From assembly GCF_900106585.1 (NCBI RefSeq), contig NZ_FNWH01000004.1:124001-188000 (forward strand): a stretch of 64,000 bases of DNA, given 5' to 3'. Below are positions 1-5,795 of this stretch, one piece after another. Under the pieces are notes generated by a model that made no database searches, was not told where the DNA came from, and saw nothing but the letters and a program-made list of their open reading frames with translations. Numbering within the stretch: position 1 is the first letter of the stretch; every line of letters starts with the position of its first letter. The DNA is from Acidaminococcus timonensis. GTDB taxonomy: Bacteria > Bacillota > Negativicutes > Acidaminococcales > Acidaminococcaceae. A program made the translations under genes and the position numbers.

Positions 1-456
1 CAGCACACAGGCATGGCTCAGTTTGGCACCCAGGTAGTCATCCCGCAGATCCGTATGGGCATCGAAATGGATGATTTCCAGATCCGGATATTTCTTGAAG
101 ACCGCCCGCACGGCCCCCAATGTCACCAGGTGTTCGCCCCCCAGCATGAAGGGAAGCTTTCCGTCCCGCAAAATGGTGGCCGTCCGCTGCTCGATGTCCT
201 GCAGGGCCATTTCGGAACTGCCGAAGCACAGCTCCAGATCGCCGCTGTCGAAGATGTCGTAGTCTTCCAGATCCTTATCCTGGTAGGGACTGTAGGTCTC
301 CAGCCCGAAGCTTTCATGGCGGATGGCCGAAGACCCGAACCGGGCCCCGGGCCGGAAGCTGGTAGTGGAGTCAAAGGGCGCCCCGAACAGGACGATTTTC
401 GCATCCTCGTAGGGTGCTTCACAGGCCAGGAAGGTCTCCACATTATTTTTCAGCAT
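1..456 (-). CDS. speB: Agmatinase (ureohydrolase), 3' part cut by window edge
   Basis: Hydrolyses agmatine to putrescine and urea in the cytoplasm. The 152 N-terminal residues in the window carry two metal-binding signatures of the arginase/agmatinase family: GGEH at residues 106-109 and DAHTDLR at 132-138, where His and Asp hold the two Mn ions. The ATG at 456 lies 14 nt inside the end of speE, so the two genes are translationally coupled. It is the last gene of speA-speE-speB. With an arginine-type decarboxylase upstream, this supports an arginine-agmatine-putrescine route. The C-terminal half lies beyond the left edge. Formiminoglutamase or another ureohydrolase is possible but less likely in this operon. 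Confidence 0.93.
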   Translation of the reverse strand, partial: MLKNNVETFLACEAPYEDAKIVLFGAPFDSTTSFRPGARFGSSAIRHESFGLETYSPYQDKDLEDYDIFDSGDLELCFGSSEMALQDIEQRTATILRDGKLPFMLGGEHLVTLGAVRAVFKKYPDLEIIHFDAHTDLRDDYLGAKLSHACVL

Positions 457-1309
457 TGTCTTCCACCTCTTTCAGCATCTCCTCCAGGAAGGCCGGCAGC
501 CAGAAGGCGCCCACGTGCAGCCGGGTGGTGTAATACCGGGTATGCATGTTCAGGGCTTCCCAGGCCGGGGCGTCCAGGTCGTTGATGGGGTGGTACTTCT
601 TGCTGGCGAAGCCGAAGGTCCAGTAGCCCGCCGCGTAGGTGGGGATGTGGGCCTGGTACACCTTGCTGATGGGGAACGTGCTGACGATGCGCTGGTGGCT
701 CCGCTGCATGGCGATGGCGTCTTCCTTATAGAAGGGACTGCCCTGCTGGTTCACCATGATGCCGTCTTCCCGCAGTGCGTTGTAGCAGCTGCCGTAGAAT
801 TCCCGGGTGAAGAACCCTTCGGACGGTCCGAAAGGATCCACGGAATCCACGATGATCAGGTCGTAGCTGTTTTCCCGATGGCGGATGAATTTCAGCGCGT
901 TCTCAAAATAGATATGTACCCGGCGGTCGTCCATCCGGCAGGCATTCCCCGGCAGATAGTTCCGGCAGGCTTCCACCACCATGGGATCCATCTCCACCAG
1001 GTCGATTTTCTCCACCCGGTCGTAGCGGGTCAGTTCCCGTACCACGCCGCCGTCCCCGGCGCCGATCACCAGGATGTCCTTGATGCCCTTGTGCACTGCC
1101 ATGGGCACGTGGGTCATCATCTCATCGTAGATGAACTCATCCCGCTCGGTCAGCATCACATTGCCGTCCAGCGTCAGGACCCGGCCGAACTCCGGTGTCT
1201 CAAAGATATCGATCCGCTGGAAATCACTTTGCTTGGAAAACAGATGACGATCCACCCGCAGGCTGTGTTTCACATCCGGCGTATGGAATTCGCTGAACCA
1301 CATTTCCAT
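443..1309 (-). CDS. speE: Spermidine synthase (polyamine aminopropyltransferase)
   Basis: Transfers an aminopropyl group from decarboxylated S-adenosylmethionine to putrescine. The 288-residue protein has the usual family length. It shows the polyamine-site motif YDEMMTHVP (about 61-69), the nucleotide-binding loop GAGDGG (83-88), an acidic residue at the end of the next strand (VEMDPM, about 105-110) and the catalytic DSVDP (about 155-159). The ATG at 1309 follows a GAGGGGGA ribosome-binding site. It is 16 nt downstream of speA and overlaps speB. The final residues are encoded in the overlap. Confidence 0.96.
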   Translation of the reverse strand: MEMWFSEFHTPDVKHSLRVDRHLFSKQSDFQRIDIFETPEFGRVLTLDGNVMLTERDEFIYDEMMTHVPMAVHKGIKDILVIGAGDGGVVRELTRYDRVEKIDLVEMDPMVVEACRNYLPGNACRMDDRRVHIYFENALKFIRHRENSYDLIIVDSVDPFGPSEGFFTREFYGSCYNALREDGIMVNQQGSPFYKEDAIAMQRSHQRIVSTFPISKVYQAHIPTYAAGYWTFGFASKKYHPINDLDAPAWEALNMHTRYYTTRLHVGAFWLPAFLEEMLKEVEDNAEK

Positions 1310-1325: not shown

Positions 1326-2783
1326 TTAGGCTAACACATTCAGATGCTTCAGCTCCGGATCTTCCGAACCGGTCATGCTGCAGCCCTTCTCTTTGGCGTA
1401 CCGGATATGTTCCAGCACGGTCTTCGTAATCTTTTCGCCCGGCGCCAAAAGCGGGATCCCAGGCGGATAACACATGACGAACTCGCTGCACACCCGGCCT
1501 TCGCACTGTTCCAGAGGCAGGCTCACCTTATCGGCGTAGAAGGCCTCCTGCGGGCTGGTGACCACCACCGGTTCCACATATTCCTGGGTCAGCATGCCGG
1601 TGGGATCTTTCTGGTAGCGGCGGCGGATTTCTGCCAGGGCACTGACCAGCCGTTCCAGATCCTGGATCCGGTCCCCCATGGACAGATAGGCCAGGATGTT
1701 GCCGATATCGCCGAATTCGATCTGGATGTCGTAATCATCCCGCAGGATATCATACACTTCGATGCCGGCCAGGCCGATGTCCAGGGTGTGGATGCTCAGC
1801 TTGGTATTGTCGAAATCGAACACGGAATCCCCGTTCATCAGTTCCCGGCCAAAGGCATAGTATCCGCCGATGTTGTTGATTTCCTGCCGGGCGTATTCCG
1901 CCATATCCACCACTTTGTGGAAGATTTCCCGGCCGTGGAGCGCCAGACGTCGCCGGCTGATGTCCAGGCTGCTCATGAGCAGGTAGCTGCCGGAGGTGGT
2001 CTGGGTCAGGTTGATGATCTGGCGCACATAACCTGCATGGACCTTGGGTCCGGTGAGCAGGAAGCTGCTCTGGGTCAGGCTGCCGCCGCTCTTGTGCATG
2101 GAAATGGCGGCCATGTCCGCTCCGGCCGCCATGGCCGATACGGGCAGTCCGCTGCCAAAATAGAAGTGGGTGCCGTGGGCTTCGTCCGCCAGACACAGCA
2201 TGCCGGCCTCATGAGCCATGCGTACGATGGAGCGCAGATCGCTGCAGATGCCGTAGTACGTGGGGTTGTTCACCACCACCGCCACTGCATCCGGATTTTC
2301 CCGGATGGCCCTGGCCACCTGTTCCCGTTTCATGCCCAGGCTGATGCCCAGCCGGGGATCCACATCCGGGTTCACATACACCGGAATGGCACCGCACAGC
2401 ACCAGAGCATTGATCATGCTCTTATGCACGTTCCGGGGCAGGATGATCTTATCTCCCCGCTTGCAGGAAGACAGGATCATGGACTGGACGGCACTGGTGG
2501 TACCTCCCACCATCAAAAAAGCCTGGGAAGCCCCGAACGCATCGGCGGCCAGTTTTTCTGCCTCCCGGATGACGGATACCGGGTGGCACAGGTTGTCCAG
2601 GGGCTTCATGCTGTTCACATCCACTCCCACACATTTTTCCCCCAGGAATTCTGTCAGTTCCGGGTTTCCCCGGCCCCGTTTGTGGCCGGGCACGTCAAAG
2701 GGCACCACCCGCATTTTCCGGAAGCGTTCCAGTGCTTCGTAGATGGGCGCCCGATCCTGTTTCAACCGATATTGCTTTTCCAA
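1326..2783 (-). CDS. speA: Orn/Lys/Arg decarboxylase, probably arginine decarboxylase
   Basis: PLP-dependent fold-I amino acid decarboxylase of the short Bacillus SpeA/YaaO type, 485 residues. Seen: VPGHKRGRGNP near the N-terminus (31-41), DEAHG (200-204) for PLP contact and SMHKSGGS with the Schiff-base lysine at about 231. The C-terminal domain has YPPGIPLLAPGE. A TTG start at 2783 is preferred because GGGGAGGG lies 5 nt upstream. The reading frame stays open upstream to 2831 but has no ribosome-binding site there and would cross a terminator hairpin. The substrate is inferred to be arginine because agmatinase is in the same operon; lysine or ornithine cannot be excluded. Expression is probably controlled through the leader at 2822-3144. 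Confidence 0.88.
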   Translation of the reverse strand: MEKQYRLKQDRAPIYEALERFRKMRVVPFDVPGHKRGRGNPELTEFLGEKCVGVDVNSMKPLDNLCHPVSVIREAEKLAADAFGASQAFLMVGGTTSAVQSMILSSCKRGDKIILPRNVHKSMINALVLCGAIPVYVNPDVDPRLGISLGMKREQVARAIRENPDAVAVVVNNPTYYGICSDLRSIVRMAHEAGMLCLADEAHGTHFYFGSGLPVSAMAAGADMAAISMHKSGGSLTQSSFLLTGPKVHAGYVRQIINLTQTTSGSYLLMSSLDISRRRLALHGREIFHKVVDMAEYARQEINNIGGYYAFGRELMNGDSVFDFDNTKLSIHTLDIGLAGIEVYDILRDDYDIQIEFGDIGNILAYLSMGDRIQDLERLVSALAEIRRRYQKDPTGMLTQEYVEPVVVTSPQEAFYADKVSLPLEQCEGRVCSEFVMCYPPGIPLLAPGEKITKTVLEHIRYAKEKGCSMTGSEDPELKHLNVLA

Positions 2784-2821
2784 GCTGTTTCCCTCCCCAG
2801 TGCTTTTTTCCTTCAGTACAA

Positions 2822-3144
2822 AAAAACGCAAGCTGCCCCTTGCAGCTTGCGTTTTAAGGTCTCATCCGGTATTTCGGTTTGCTTCTTTTGGGAATCCCCG
2901 TTACGAACGACTCTTATTGACCGTTTCACAAGTCTGCGCACAGACGCATTGCGGTTATGAAGTAACCAACTTATAAAAGTTGAACCAGCAGGTTCAATCA
3001 ATAAGGCTGCAAACCAGTTGCCGCCAATTCGGCAGTGGACCCGGCTGTCCGTATGGCCTTGACCGGACAGCTGCCCCGAAAGGGCAGGACCCCTGTCCAG
3101 TGGTCCTGTAATGAATCCGAAAACCCGTAACCGAATTTTCAAAT
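2822..3144 (-). ncRNA. Structured 5' leader or small RNA upstream of speA (class not recognised)
   Basis: About 320 nt lie between a strong promoter and an intrinsic terminator, without a credible ORF. Several hairpins are visible on the minus strand: CTGCCC/GGGCAG nested inside CTGGACAG/CTGTCCGG, TGCCG/CGGCA, TTGAACC/GGTTCAA, AACTT/AAGTT, GGTTA/TAACC and GTCTG/CAGAC. The 5' segment AATTCGGTT (3129-3137) can pair with AACCGAAAT (2871-2879) near the 3' end, closing the whole fold. I see no T-box (TGGNACCGCG), lysine-riboswitch, SRP or RNase P signature. Possible roles are a polyamine- or arginine-sensing attenuator or an independent ncRNA. Confidence 0.6.
2823..2855 (-). terminator. Intrinsic terminator in the speA leader
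   Basis: A perfect 14-bp stem (arms 2823-2836 and 2842-2855) with a 5-nt loop, followed on the minus strand by a run of U. It sits about 40 nt before the speA start codon. It must therefore be either an attenuator for the polyamine operon or the end of a free-standing RNA. Confidence 0.88.
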
Positions 3145-3151
3145 CGTAAAA

Positions 3152-3180
3152 ATTTTAACATACCCCCACCCCGTTGTCAA
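3152..3180 (-). promoter_or_regulatory. Sigma-70 promoter of the speA leader
   Basis: Minus strand: perfect -35 TTGACA (3175-3180), 17-nt spacer, -10 TAAAAT (3152-3157). Transcription should start near 3144. Confidence 0.85.
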
Positions 3181-3247
3181 TTTCATCTTGTCTTCCCCTC
3201 CTCCCCGTGCTACCATGGGAACAGACTTTTCGAAGGGAGCTGTTGGG

Positions 3248-4225
3248 ATGAGGAGAGAGGAATGGGTACGGAGCCAGATACGGAGTCCCTGGCACTGGGG
3301 GAGTCTTTTGGCTCTCTGGGGGCTGGGGTATTACTCCTTAGGCTGGGCGGGCCATGGCCACATGACGGCCGCCATAGTGGGGTGGGTGCTGTTCCTGCTG
3401 GTAGAAACGGCTCCCATGCTCTGGACCATGCTGCTCTTCACCGGAGTGATGATGGCCCTGTCCAGGATTTTTCCCCCCGTGGCCCTGATTTTCATCATCA
3501 TCGGCATCGTGTTCTTCATCCTCCGGATCCGCTACGTGATCCAGAACGCCCAGCTGCTGGCCAGCGGGTTCCTGGTATATATGGTCTACTATGAGCTTTT
3601 TTCCGACCGGATGCGGCTGGGCTGGGAATTGGTGGAAGCCTGCTACAGAGTGGTGACCCTGGGGCATCTCATCCCCATACCCTGGTGGCTGCTGCATTTT
3701 TTGTCCTACCTGGCCCTGCTCCTGGCCGCCGGACTGCCGGTGCTCCTGGTCCATCTGCTTCTCCGGTTTTCCTATCGGAAAGGCTACGAAAGCCGCAGCG
3801 CCCTCACGGTACTGTTCGGCCTGCCTCTGGTGGTGATTTCTTTCCTGCTGCCGTTCCTGAAGATCCTGGGGGCCTTTGAGGGAGCCGCCTTTACCGACGC
3901 CGGCCACACGGTCCACACGGGAGGGGACGGAGTCCACGGCACCGATGGTTTCCACGGCACGGGAGACGGCCATCCGGTCCCGGTCCACCACGTGAACGGC
4001 TATTTCCGATCCTCCCCCGACGGGGGTACCACCTATGTCCATCCCCATGTGGCCACCAATCCGGATGGGATCTTGGAAAACAACCTGTCCTACCACGGAC
4101 CCCATCCCATGTCCGGACCGGAAGGAATCCCCCAGGTCCGATCGGCTGCCGGCCATCCATTCCAAGGGCCAAATGTGGATACAGTGCCAGGAATCGGAAA
4201 AGAGGAAAAGAAAAAGGAGGTGTGA
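3248..4225 (+). CDS. Multi-pass membrane protein with His/Gly-rich C-terminal tail, unknown function
   Basis: Not recognised as a named family. The 325-residue product starts at ATG 3248, 8 nt after AAGGGAG; the longer upstream reading has no ribosome-binding site. Hydrophobic stretches at about 16-33, 40-72, 75-95, 103-118, 142-172 and 183-207 predict six or seven membrane spans. After residue 212 comes a soluble tail rich in His and Gly. It contains GYFRSSPDGGTTYVHPH and NPDGILENN, resembling the short motif GYxRxDGTxVxPHxRTNPDGxxxNN that many bacterial proteins carry near their end. The protein ends in a Lys/Glu-rich stretch. The stop codon overlaps a terminator arm that an IS element has since split. 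The tail may bind metal; that is inference. Confidence 0.8.
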   Translation: MRREEWVRSQIRSPWHWGSLLALWGLGYYSLGWAGHGHMTAAIVGWVLFLLVETAPMLWTMLLFTGVMMALSRIFPPVALIFIIIGIVFFILRIRYVIQNAQLLASGFLVYMVYYELFSDRMRLGWELVEACYRVVTLGHLIPIPWWLLHFLSYLALLLAAGLPVLLVHLLLRFSYRKGYESRSALTVLFGLPLVVISFLLPFLKILGAFEGAAFTDAGHTVHTGGDGVHGTDGFHGTGDGHPVPVHHVNGYFRSSPDGGTTYVHPHVATNPDGILENNLSYHGPHPMSGPEGIPQVRSAAGHPFQGPNVDTVPGIGKEEKKKEV

Positions 4226-4296: not shown

Positions 4297-5142
4297 TTAT
4301 GCTGCCTGCAAGGAAAGCCTGTATTGAACAGGACTTTTCCAGCCCAGTTTTTCCTTGATTCTTTGCTCGTTATAGTATTTGATGTATCGTTCGATAGCGC
4401 CTTTTAATTCTTTGTAGCTGTAGTAGGTCACTCCGTAATATATTTCCTGCTTCAGTAAGCCGAAGAAGTTTTCCATTACAGCGTTATCATGACAGTTGCC
4501 TTTTCGAGACATGCTCTGAAAAATTCGTTCGTTTTTTAGTCTTTTGGTATAGAATTTCATTTGGTATGCCCAGCCCTGATCGGAGTGAAATGTTCTTCGA
4601 TACGGACAATCAGCAGTAATTTTGATTGCTTTGGCTTGAGCTTCCAGTATGCTGTTAGCCGAAGGATATTTGGCTATTCCATAGCTGATGATTTCATTAT
4701 TGAACATGTCCAGGAAAGGATCCAGATAAAGCTTGCGCAGAGTCAAATGTCCCTGTGAATCTGCTTCATAGTATTTGAATTCTGAAGTGTCGGTCGTAAT
4801 CTTCTGGTGAGGGATATTCGTCTCAAAACGACGATGTATCCTATTTGGAGCAATGGTTCCTACCTTACCCTTATAGGAGCTGTATTTACGGCTCTTCCGG
4901 GTAAAAGATGTTACCTGAAGGCTCAGTTTCTGCATGATACGTTGAACTTTCTTCTTGTTCACGCAAATCCCTTGGTTCTTTAGCTCACCGGTCATGCGAC
5001 GGTATCCATAATCTTTATGCTGGCTGCGGATTTCCTGTATTTTCTCCTCTACTTCCTGGTCTGGATTCTCGCGGTCAAACCGTTTCTGCCAGTACATATA
5101 GGTTGCTTTGGGCATTTGCGTATAGGAGAGAATGTCTTTCAA
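4297..5142 (-). CDS. IS3-family transposase OrfB (rve integrase domain)
   Basis: Catalytic half of the transposase, 281 residues as an independent ORF. It contains an HTH_21-like region (YGYRRMTGELKNQG) and an rve domain with the DDE residues in TTDTSEFKYY, HSDQGWAY and AVMENFFGLLK. The stand-alone TTG start overlaps the OrfA stop (TTGA). Reading the OrfB frame further upstream gives RVAKIISSLRGSFKLKDIL, a usual OrfB beginning, so the active enzyme is probably an OrfAB fusion made by -1 frameshifting. A run of five A (5189-5193 on the complement) is a candidate slip site. Confidence 0.93.
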   Translation of the reverse strand: MKDILSYTQMPKATYMYWQKRFDRENPDQEVEEKIQEIRSQHKDYGYRRMTGELKNQGICVNKKKVQRIMQKLSLQVTSFTRKSRKYSSYKGKVGTIAPNRIHRRFETNIPHQKITTDTSEFKYYEADSQGHLTLRKLYLDPFLDMFNNEIISYGIAKYPSANSILEAQAKAIKITADCPYRRTFHSDQGWAYQMKFYTKRLKNERIFQSMSRKGNCHDNAVMENFFGLLKQEIYYGVTYYSYKELKGAIERYIKYYNEQRIKEKLGWKSPVQYRLSLQAA

Positions 5143-5717
5143 CTTGAATGATCCTCGGAGACTGGAGATGATTTTCGCAACTCTCTCATTTTTGCTTCGT
5201 CCTCTAAACGCAGTCTCCTCAGTTCTTTTAAAAAAGCATTCTCTATTCGGAGTTTAAGGTTTTCATTCTCTAACTCCTGGACATGTTCCACACTGATGTT
5301 GACCATCGGTTGTTGAACCTGGGTATCTGTTTTTTTGGGTTTTGATTGGCTCAAAGTCTTTTTCCTACCTTTTTTATGTGACCGTAACGCATCCGGCCCC
5401 GCAATTTTAAATTCATTGACCCATCTGGAAATCAATGACGGATTGTTGATTCCTACACGAATTGCCAATTCCTGATATGAGATTTCATTTGTTAAGTAAG
5501 ACTCTACCACAGAAAGTTTTTCTTTGAAAGAGTATATTTTTTGAGAGCGAGATCTCTTCAGACCATTATCTCCAAATGCCTTGTAAGCAGCAGCCCACTT
5601 TAGCAGCTGGCTGCTACTTGCCATCCCATATTTACGTGAAATAGAAATACACCCTTTGTCACTGTTCAAGTATTCCAGTACTATTTTTTTCTTAAATTCA
5701 TAGCTGTGTCTTGCCAT
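5139..5717 (-). CDS. IS3-family transposase OrfA (DNA-binding helix-turn-helix)
   Basis: 192 residues from ATG 5717. Two repeated helix-turn-helix segments (YEFKKKIVLEYLNSDKG and FKEKLSVVESYLTNEISY) bind the IS ends. A C-terminal leucine-zipper-like coil (VQELENENLKLRIENAFL) mediates oligomerisation. This is the two-HTH OrfA layout of the IS150 group. The frame overlaps OrfB by four nucleotides. An in-frame ATG further upstream (5735) lies inside the terminal repeat and is unlikely to be the start. Confidence 0.9.
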   Translation of the reverse strand: MARHSYEFKKKIVLEYLNSDKGCISISRKYGMASSSQLLKWAAAYKAFGDNGLKRSRSQKIYSFKEKLSVVESYLTNEISYQELAIRVGINNPSLISRWVNEFKIAGPDALRSHKKGRKKTLSQSKPKKTDTQVQQPMVNISVEHVQELENENLKLRIENAFLKELRRLRLEDEAKMRELRKSSPVSEDHSS

Positions 5718-5795
5718 AAAAAAACTAACCCCCAATTGTTAGATTTTTGGTCTAACAATTGGGGGTCAGCTCAATTTTTTCACACCCCCTTTTTG

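Follow-up and report, generated by a model that had tools for sequence, protein, structure and literature searches.

We describe here an RNA leader in front of a polyamine operon of Acidaminococcus timonensis, found within a 64,000-nucleotide stretch of contig NZ_FNWH01000004.1 (hereafter the window). Comparison with related sequences suggests that the leader probably attenuates transcription in cis, most likely as a riboswitch that binds spermidine or a closely related polyamine and would switch the operon off. A metabolite-controlled attenuator had been proposed in the original prediction; the attenuator part is borne out by terminators, a covarying antiterminator, covarying core helices, and downstream genes that all belong to polyamine metabolism, and metabolite control is the best inference. 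When polyamine is plentiful, ligand binding would stabilize a conserved core, and the stabilized core (helix P5) would withdraw the ACUUGUGA strand from an antiterminator, which would let the terminator fold and end transcription. In the absence of ligand, the antiterminator would prevail and the speA-speE-speB-CASDH-nspC genes would be transcribed. The OFF direction is proposed because of topology, as the ACUUGUGA strand sits either in the conserved fold or in the antiterminator, and spermidine is proposed because of the genes controlled. Many polyamines bind RNA nonspecifically, which makes the ligand assignment uncertain.

In the source genome, speA and speE lead the operon; an agmatinase-like speB comes next, then a carboxynorspermidine synthase-like gene (CASDH) and an nspC-like decarboxylase gene, and pst genes follow. 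The speB-like, carboxynorspermidine synthase-like, and nspC-like genes lie outside the window and were named from their sequence. The transcription unit within the window has the following parts.

3152 to 3180, minus strand: leader promoter TTGACA-N17(TG)-TAAAAT, matching 11 of 12 consensus positions.
About 3145, minus strand: predicted transcription start, placed from the promoter.
2820 to 3145, minus strand: whole leader RNA if terminated, about 326 nt, with ends placed from the promoter and terminator.
2820 to 2855, minus strand: intrinsic terminator, a perfect 14-bp stem (2855 to 2823) and U run, −22.0 kcal/mol.
2791 to 2797, minus strand: ribosome site GGGAGGG before speA, read from the sequence.
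1326 to 2783, minus strand: speA, encoding an Orn/Lys/Arg decarboxylase of the speA/ldcC type (PF01276, by family search), the first gene of the operon.
443 to 1309, minus strand: speE, encoding spermidine synthase (TIGR00417, by family search).

The consensus promoter and the perfect terminator that had been predicted are both present, the former with a 17-nt spacer and a TG-extended −10 element, the latter some 40 nt ahead of TTG (2783), the probable start codon of speA. The promoter is the sole promoter-like site in the interval from 2000 to 4000, where 0.7 would be expected from shuffled sequences. It is abutted by the upstream region of a divergent gene (3249 to 4225, plus strand) for a glycine/histidine-rich predicted membrane protein with no Pfam match. 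Farther on, adjacent open reading frames of 198 and 281 amino acids (4297 to 5735, minus strand) resemble orfA and orfB of an IS3-type insertion sequence.

The original prediction had recognized no known riboswitch or T-box signature in the leader; cmscan, however, matched positions 3106 to 3029 (minus strand) to Rfam family RF02440 (SpF59_sRNA, or ldcC RNA) with 61 bits against a gathering cutoff of 37.2. The match covers the complete model, positions 1 to 54, and an Orn/Lys/Arg decarboxylase gene follows 40 nt downstream of the terminator. No common RNA such as 6S was matched in the leader, nor was T-box or the SAM or lysine riboswitch (gathering score for all; E up to 1 for SAM and lysine). 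Weak Rfam matches in the leader to RAGATH-10 (18.9 bits) and mir-259 (17.4 bits) fell far under the cutoff and were rejected. Searches with RF02440 hit 15 of 61 relatives and, across the phylum, 18 of 398 genomes. Conservation in relatives extends well past the 54 Rfam positions, to a core of about 210 nt with the consensus GACC..GUnAAGGCCAUACGGACAGCCGGGUC.A.UGCCGA, followed by UUAUUGAUUGAG..CUCAAAUUUUAUAAGUUGGUUA..AACC and ACUUGUGAAACGGUCAAUAAGAGUAGUAAAAGUA..UUUGCUAUAUAGACUCU. A 210-position covariance model, R1, was built from a 41-sequence alignment (A1) that excludes the window; the window nevertheless reaches 129 bits with it (E = 1.8e-31). R1 finds 25 of the 398 phylum genomes, seven of which are missed by RF02440. 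Five of the seven R1-only loci have a visible same-strand downstream speA or speD gene; two reverse-strand loci (L166 and L170) stood outside the neighbor-gene assignment. The window leader thus resembles RF02440 in passing its cutoff, in sharing the GGCCAUACGGACAGCCGGGUC..UGCCGA block, and in standing before a speA/ldcC-type gene. Rfam, however, describes 54 positions typed as an sRNA, whereas the class here has the longer core, further helices, and a covarying antiterminator and terminator. RF02440 is known and only partly described, and we make no claim that the extended structure and the attenuator idea are unpublished. Weinberg et al. 2017 reportedly included an 'ldcC motif' among 224 candidates, and to our knowledge the mechanism of the family has not been worked out.

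The comparison set comprised more than 100 relatives, with 117 stretches found by a DNA pattern alone and further loci from Rfam searches. In all 132 real loci with an assignable downstream gene, that gene comes from one of four polyamine families that are not homologous to each other, named from cluster representatives: speA/ldcC-type (56 loci), speD (TIGR03331; 35), carboxynorspermidine synthase-like (25; NF043000 is the best model, with a score under its cutoff), and potA-like (16). The sole other downstream assignment, a pattern match in Actinomyces oris (L115), lies inside a coding sequence and was set aside as a chance match. All four families have spermidine in common as product or cargo; judged by the genes, it would be what two biosynthetic routes, the supply of precursors, and uptake share. 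The same core occurs across Clostridia, Bacilli, and Negativicutes, in a spirochaete bin, and in a synergistete bin. By bin label, the last two members (L083 and L116, the latter from a Synergistaceae bin) fall outside the Firmicutes. The DNA pattern had no match in viral contigs, and two near-complete congeners of the window species (G002 and G004) had no match to RF02440 or R1.

The leader itself is divided as follows.

3114 to 3144, minus strand: 5′ hairpin P0, UUUGAAAA / UUUUCGGA, drawn by eye.
3029 to 3106, minus strand: domain A, the RF02440 match, identified by that match and by covariation in relatives; it contains P2 (GGACC/GGGUC), P2a, the P2b hairpin GGC-CAUACGGACA-GCC, and the conserved UGCCGA.
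3005 to 3025, minus strand: P3 hairpin GGCGGC/GCAGCC, with double changes in relatives at six of six pairs.
2914 to 3004, minus strand: P4 domain, enclosing P4a, P5, P5a, and P5b, from covariation analysis and folding of the window; the P4 strands are UUAUUGAUU (3004 to 2996) and GGUCAAUAA (2922 to 2914).
2968 to 2978, minus strand: 5′ strand of P5, UUUUAUAAGUU, whose core-fold partner is 2934 to 2924.
2927 to 2937, minus strand: switch strand GCAGACUUGUG, which belongs to P5/P5b in one fold and pairs with 2851 to 2842 as the antiterminator in the other.
2856 to 2913, minus strand: 3′ segment that in a sub-clade replaces the pseudoknot core of the class, AGUAGUAAAAGU..UUUGCUAUAUAGACUC; R1 leaves it unaligned in loci L008 to L010.
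2842 to 2851, minus strand: 5′ arm of the terminator, CGCAAGCUGC, the alternative partner of the switch strand.

The RNA from 3145 to 2823 folds at −126.6 kcal/mol, compared with −97.6 ± 5.7 for shuffled sequences (z = −5.1; 0 of 100 as good). At least six local hairpins had been predicted, and seven or more appear in this fold. P2a in the window is long and carries an inserted hairpin. By eye, the P0 hairpin is kept in relatives while its sequence differs (UUGGAAAG/CUUUCCAA, CAUGAA/UUCAUG). A long-range closing pair between 3129 to 3137 and 2871 to 2879, also predicted, holds up as complementarity, with seven contiguous pairs possible, but not as a conserved helix: the minimum-energy fold forms a local 5′ hairpin instead, and by eye only four to six pairs are left in sister loci L008, L009, and L010, with no compensating change.

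Ten predicted helices of the class are supported by covariation or conservation. Aligning all sequences in one step gave 1007 columns with too many gaps, and a filtered set and then A1, which holds 41 diverse sequences, took its place. In A1 the helices are paired in 93.5% of cells versus 33 to 46% when slid, a percentage that leans toward the drawn helices because they were drawn by eye from the same sequences. Covariation counts and permutation tests are better evidence. Both sides change in 23 of 55 pairs versus 12.4 in shuffles (0 of 500 as high), and the covariation score is 0.204 versus 0.097, so the core helices do covary among homologues, as the original prediction had suggested checking. 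Compensatory changes lie mostly in P2, P2a, P2b, P3, P4a, and P5a; P4, P5, and P6 are nearly invariant in A1, and covariation therefore hardly tests them. For P1 (GCAGAUAAU/AUUAUUUGC and variants), RNAalifold alone preferred a local 3′ hairpin. P1 was retained because its strands match within loci beyond permutation, with 5.16 pairs within a locus versus 3.52 permuted (SD 0.15; 0 of 5000). P6 (GAGU/ACUC) appears as the compensatory GAGC/GCUC in two lineages; it crosses P1 and would therefore be a pseudoknot.

Of 144 loci, 124 have a terminator ahead of the gene, and some of the misses are contig ends. A 25-nt stretch spanning ACUUGUGA pairs with the 5′ terminator arm of its own locus at a mean of −15.0 kcal/mol versus −12.3 permuted (SD 0.23; 0 of 2000), and the best partner segment in the whole leader includes the ACUUGUGA strand in 83 of 109 loci. 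Across 65 non-redundant loci the values are −14.2 with the own arm and −11.1 kcal/mol permuted (SD 0.29; 0 of 5000), and for the variable bases beside the invariant heptamer alone they are −9.7 versus −6.4 kcal/mol (SD 0.34; 0 of 5000). The signal persists when speA loci or speD loci are taken separately (0 of 2000 each) and for the six potA loci (10 of 2000). The carboxynorspermidine synthase loci gave no signal (744 of 2000), probably owing to their close relatedness. Each strand pairs more favorably with the terminator arm of its own locus than with those of other loci, which supports the antiterminator well. In the window, switch strand 2937 to 2927 and arm 2851 to 2842 form 10 bp with one bulged A at −14.7 kcal/mol, next to −15.3 for the P5 domain and −22.0 for the terminator; on these modeled energies the choice between P5 and the antiterminator would be nearly balanced before the terminator is complete. 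Energy folding of partial window transcripts never let the antiterminator beat P5, even with the 5′ terminator arm alone out. The mutually exclusive pairing of P5, antiterminator, and terminator is present and covaries between loci.

The window copy is not of the canonical form seen in the same-genus leaders L002 and L005. Together with L008, L009, and L010 it keeps domain A, P3 to P5, the switch strand, and a matching terminator arm. The P1 helix and the 3′ pseudoknot core AGUAGUAAAAGU..UUGCUAUAUAGACUC, found in most class members but not all, are absent from the window leader, and the pattern is absent from its own genome. In L008 to L010, R1 aligns model positions 13 to 183 only; the place of L010 matches the Acidaminococcus massiliensis record L036. 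At 2856 to 2913 (minus strand), and at the same place in L008, L009, and L010, there is a nearly invariant shared 3′ segment, AGUCGUUCGUAACGGGG..AAACCGAAAUACCGGAUGAGACCUU. The window copy may behave differently because P1 and P6 of the 3′ core are missing, and it and its three sister species may have an altered switch or a ligand pocket elsewhere. The reverse loss occurs in L171 (1501 to 1718) and L173 (1501 to 1597; R1 match of 97 nt only), which lie upstream of speD, keep P1 and the AGUAGUAAAAGU..UUGCUAUAUAGACUC core, lack domain A with its Rfam block, and are missed by the RF02440 model. Neither domain A nor the 3′ core is universal, since each is lost in some members. Short leaders in four Lachnospiraceae bins (L038, L046, L143, and L149) keep domain A without the P4/P5 hairpins or the 3′ core; by eye, their terminator arms are still complementary to a diverged switch strand.

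The truncated R1 alignment, and a new 3′ segment common to the species of the sub-clade, could also mean that the window copy is decayed or rewired, its sensing core lost and its terminator constitutive and partial or answering another signal. We consider this unlikely though plausible: domain A, P3, P4, P5, the switch strand, and the terminator arm are intact and strongly conserved between species, and some Lachnospiraceae members without the 3′ core keep, by eye, terminator arms that match the switch strand.

It is unlikely that the same attenuator senses another signal, such as the substrates arginine or lysine, SAM or decarboxylated SAM, putrescine, or agmatine. The commonest downstream gene is indeed an arginine/lysine/ornithine-type decarboxylase gene, and speD uses SAM; the potA and carboxynorspermidine synthase loci, however, misfit arginine, lysine, or SAM sensing, and the Rfam searches for SAM and lysine riboswitches were negative as given above. 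Putrescine or agmatine is possible as the ligand. Reading of the attenuator by an RNA-binding protein or other trans factor, rather than by a small molecule, is distinctly improbable. The highly conserved single-stranded CAUACGGACA and AGUAAAAGU could be protein sites, but the same core extends from Clostridia, Bacilli, and Negativicutes to the spirochaete and synergistete bins, and no partner gene co-travels among the first downstream genes.

The original prediction had also allowed for a separate noncoding RNA, which matches the way the family was catalogued in Streptococcus. The pneumococcal transcript F59 (SN20, srn235, Spd_sr49) is catalogued as an sRNA (PMC3395615, PMC2887815, PMC12323649) and was described as a transcript of 318 to 327 nt upstream of SP0916 (PMC2887815, PMC12323649). 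The family name points to F59 as the transcript on which RF02440 was founded. Its length is close to the 326 nt predicted here and, compared by length and gene position, fits a terminated leader; SP0916 is a lysine decarboxylase gene. A trans-acting small RNA, as the name SpF59_sRNA implies, would agree with a promoter and terminator that enclose the leader and with the discovery of the pneumococcal homologue as an sRNA (PMC3395615). We hold it to be very improbable, given that a polyamine gene always follows the RNA immediately and in the same orientation, and that a covarying antiterminator makes sense in cis only; the RNA released at the terminator could nevertheless have a role in trans. 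Because of a shared sequence motif, SN20 had earlier been proposed as an FMN switch (PMC2887815), an idea that the gene context and structure here argue against. Ribosome-mediated attenuation through a leader peptide is hardly credible, as a Shine-Dalgarno-plus-ORF arrangement occurs in 38 of 109 leaders versus 56 expected by shuffling (no enrichment) and not in the window leader, and the distances from one invariant block to the next vary without regard to multiples of 3.

The spermidine attenuator proposed here has a functional parallel in outline. The SAM-I-variant spermidine riboswitch is found in ldcC, speE, speB, and speD leaders and acts as an antiterminator/terminator OFF switch (Salvail et al. 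2023; PMC10853860). It is alike in gene context and, if our inference is right, in OFF logic, but has the four-stem SAM-I fold, whereas the leader here is larger and of another architecture, with no SAM-family match (gathering score or E up to 1). The speF, odc1, and potE motifs are likewise RNA elements before polyamine genes (PMC11477304, PMC8632094), but their sequences differ from this leader, and speF has no Rfam match in the window. The odc1 motif is described as acting with a uORF, and the window leader has none.

For the family as a whole, the sequence comparison makes it an even call whether these leaders form a widespread second class of spermidine/polyamine riboswitch, structurally unrelated to the SAM-I variant and modular, in which domain A and the 3′ core can each be lost and a terminator arm copying the P5/P5b strand would set up strand-exchange competition. 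RF02440 has been catalogued as a small RNA; in light of the comparison it becomes a candidate switch in cis that is open to testing, with a named core and antiterminator strand and few candidate ligands. If spermidine is sensed, polyamine synthesis and uptake in many Firmicutes (25 of 398 sampled species genomes) would be governed by an RNA with no relation to the one spermidine riboswitch validated so far, and natural variants in which one domain is missing would reveal the role of each part.
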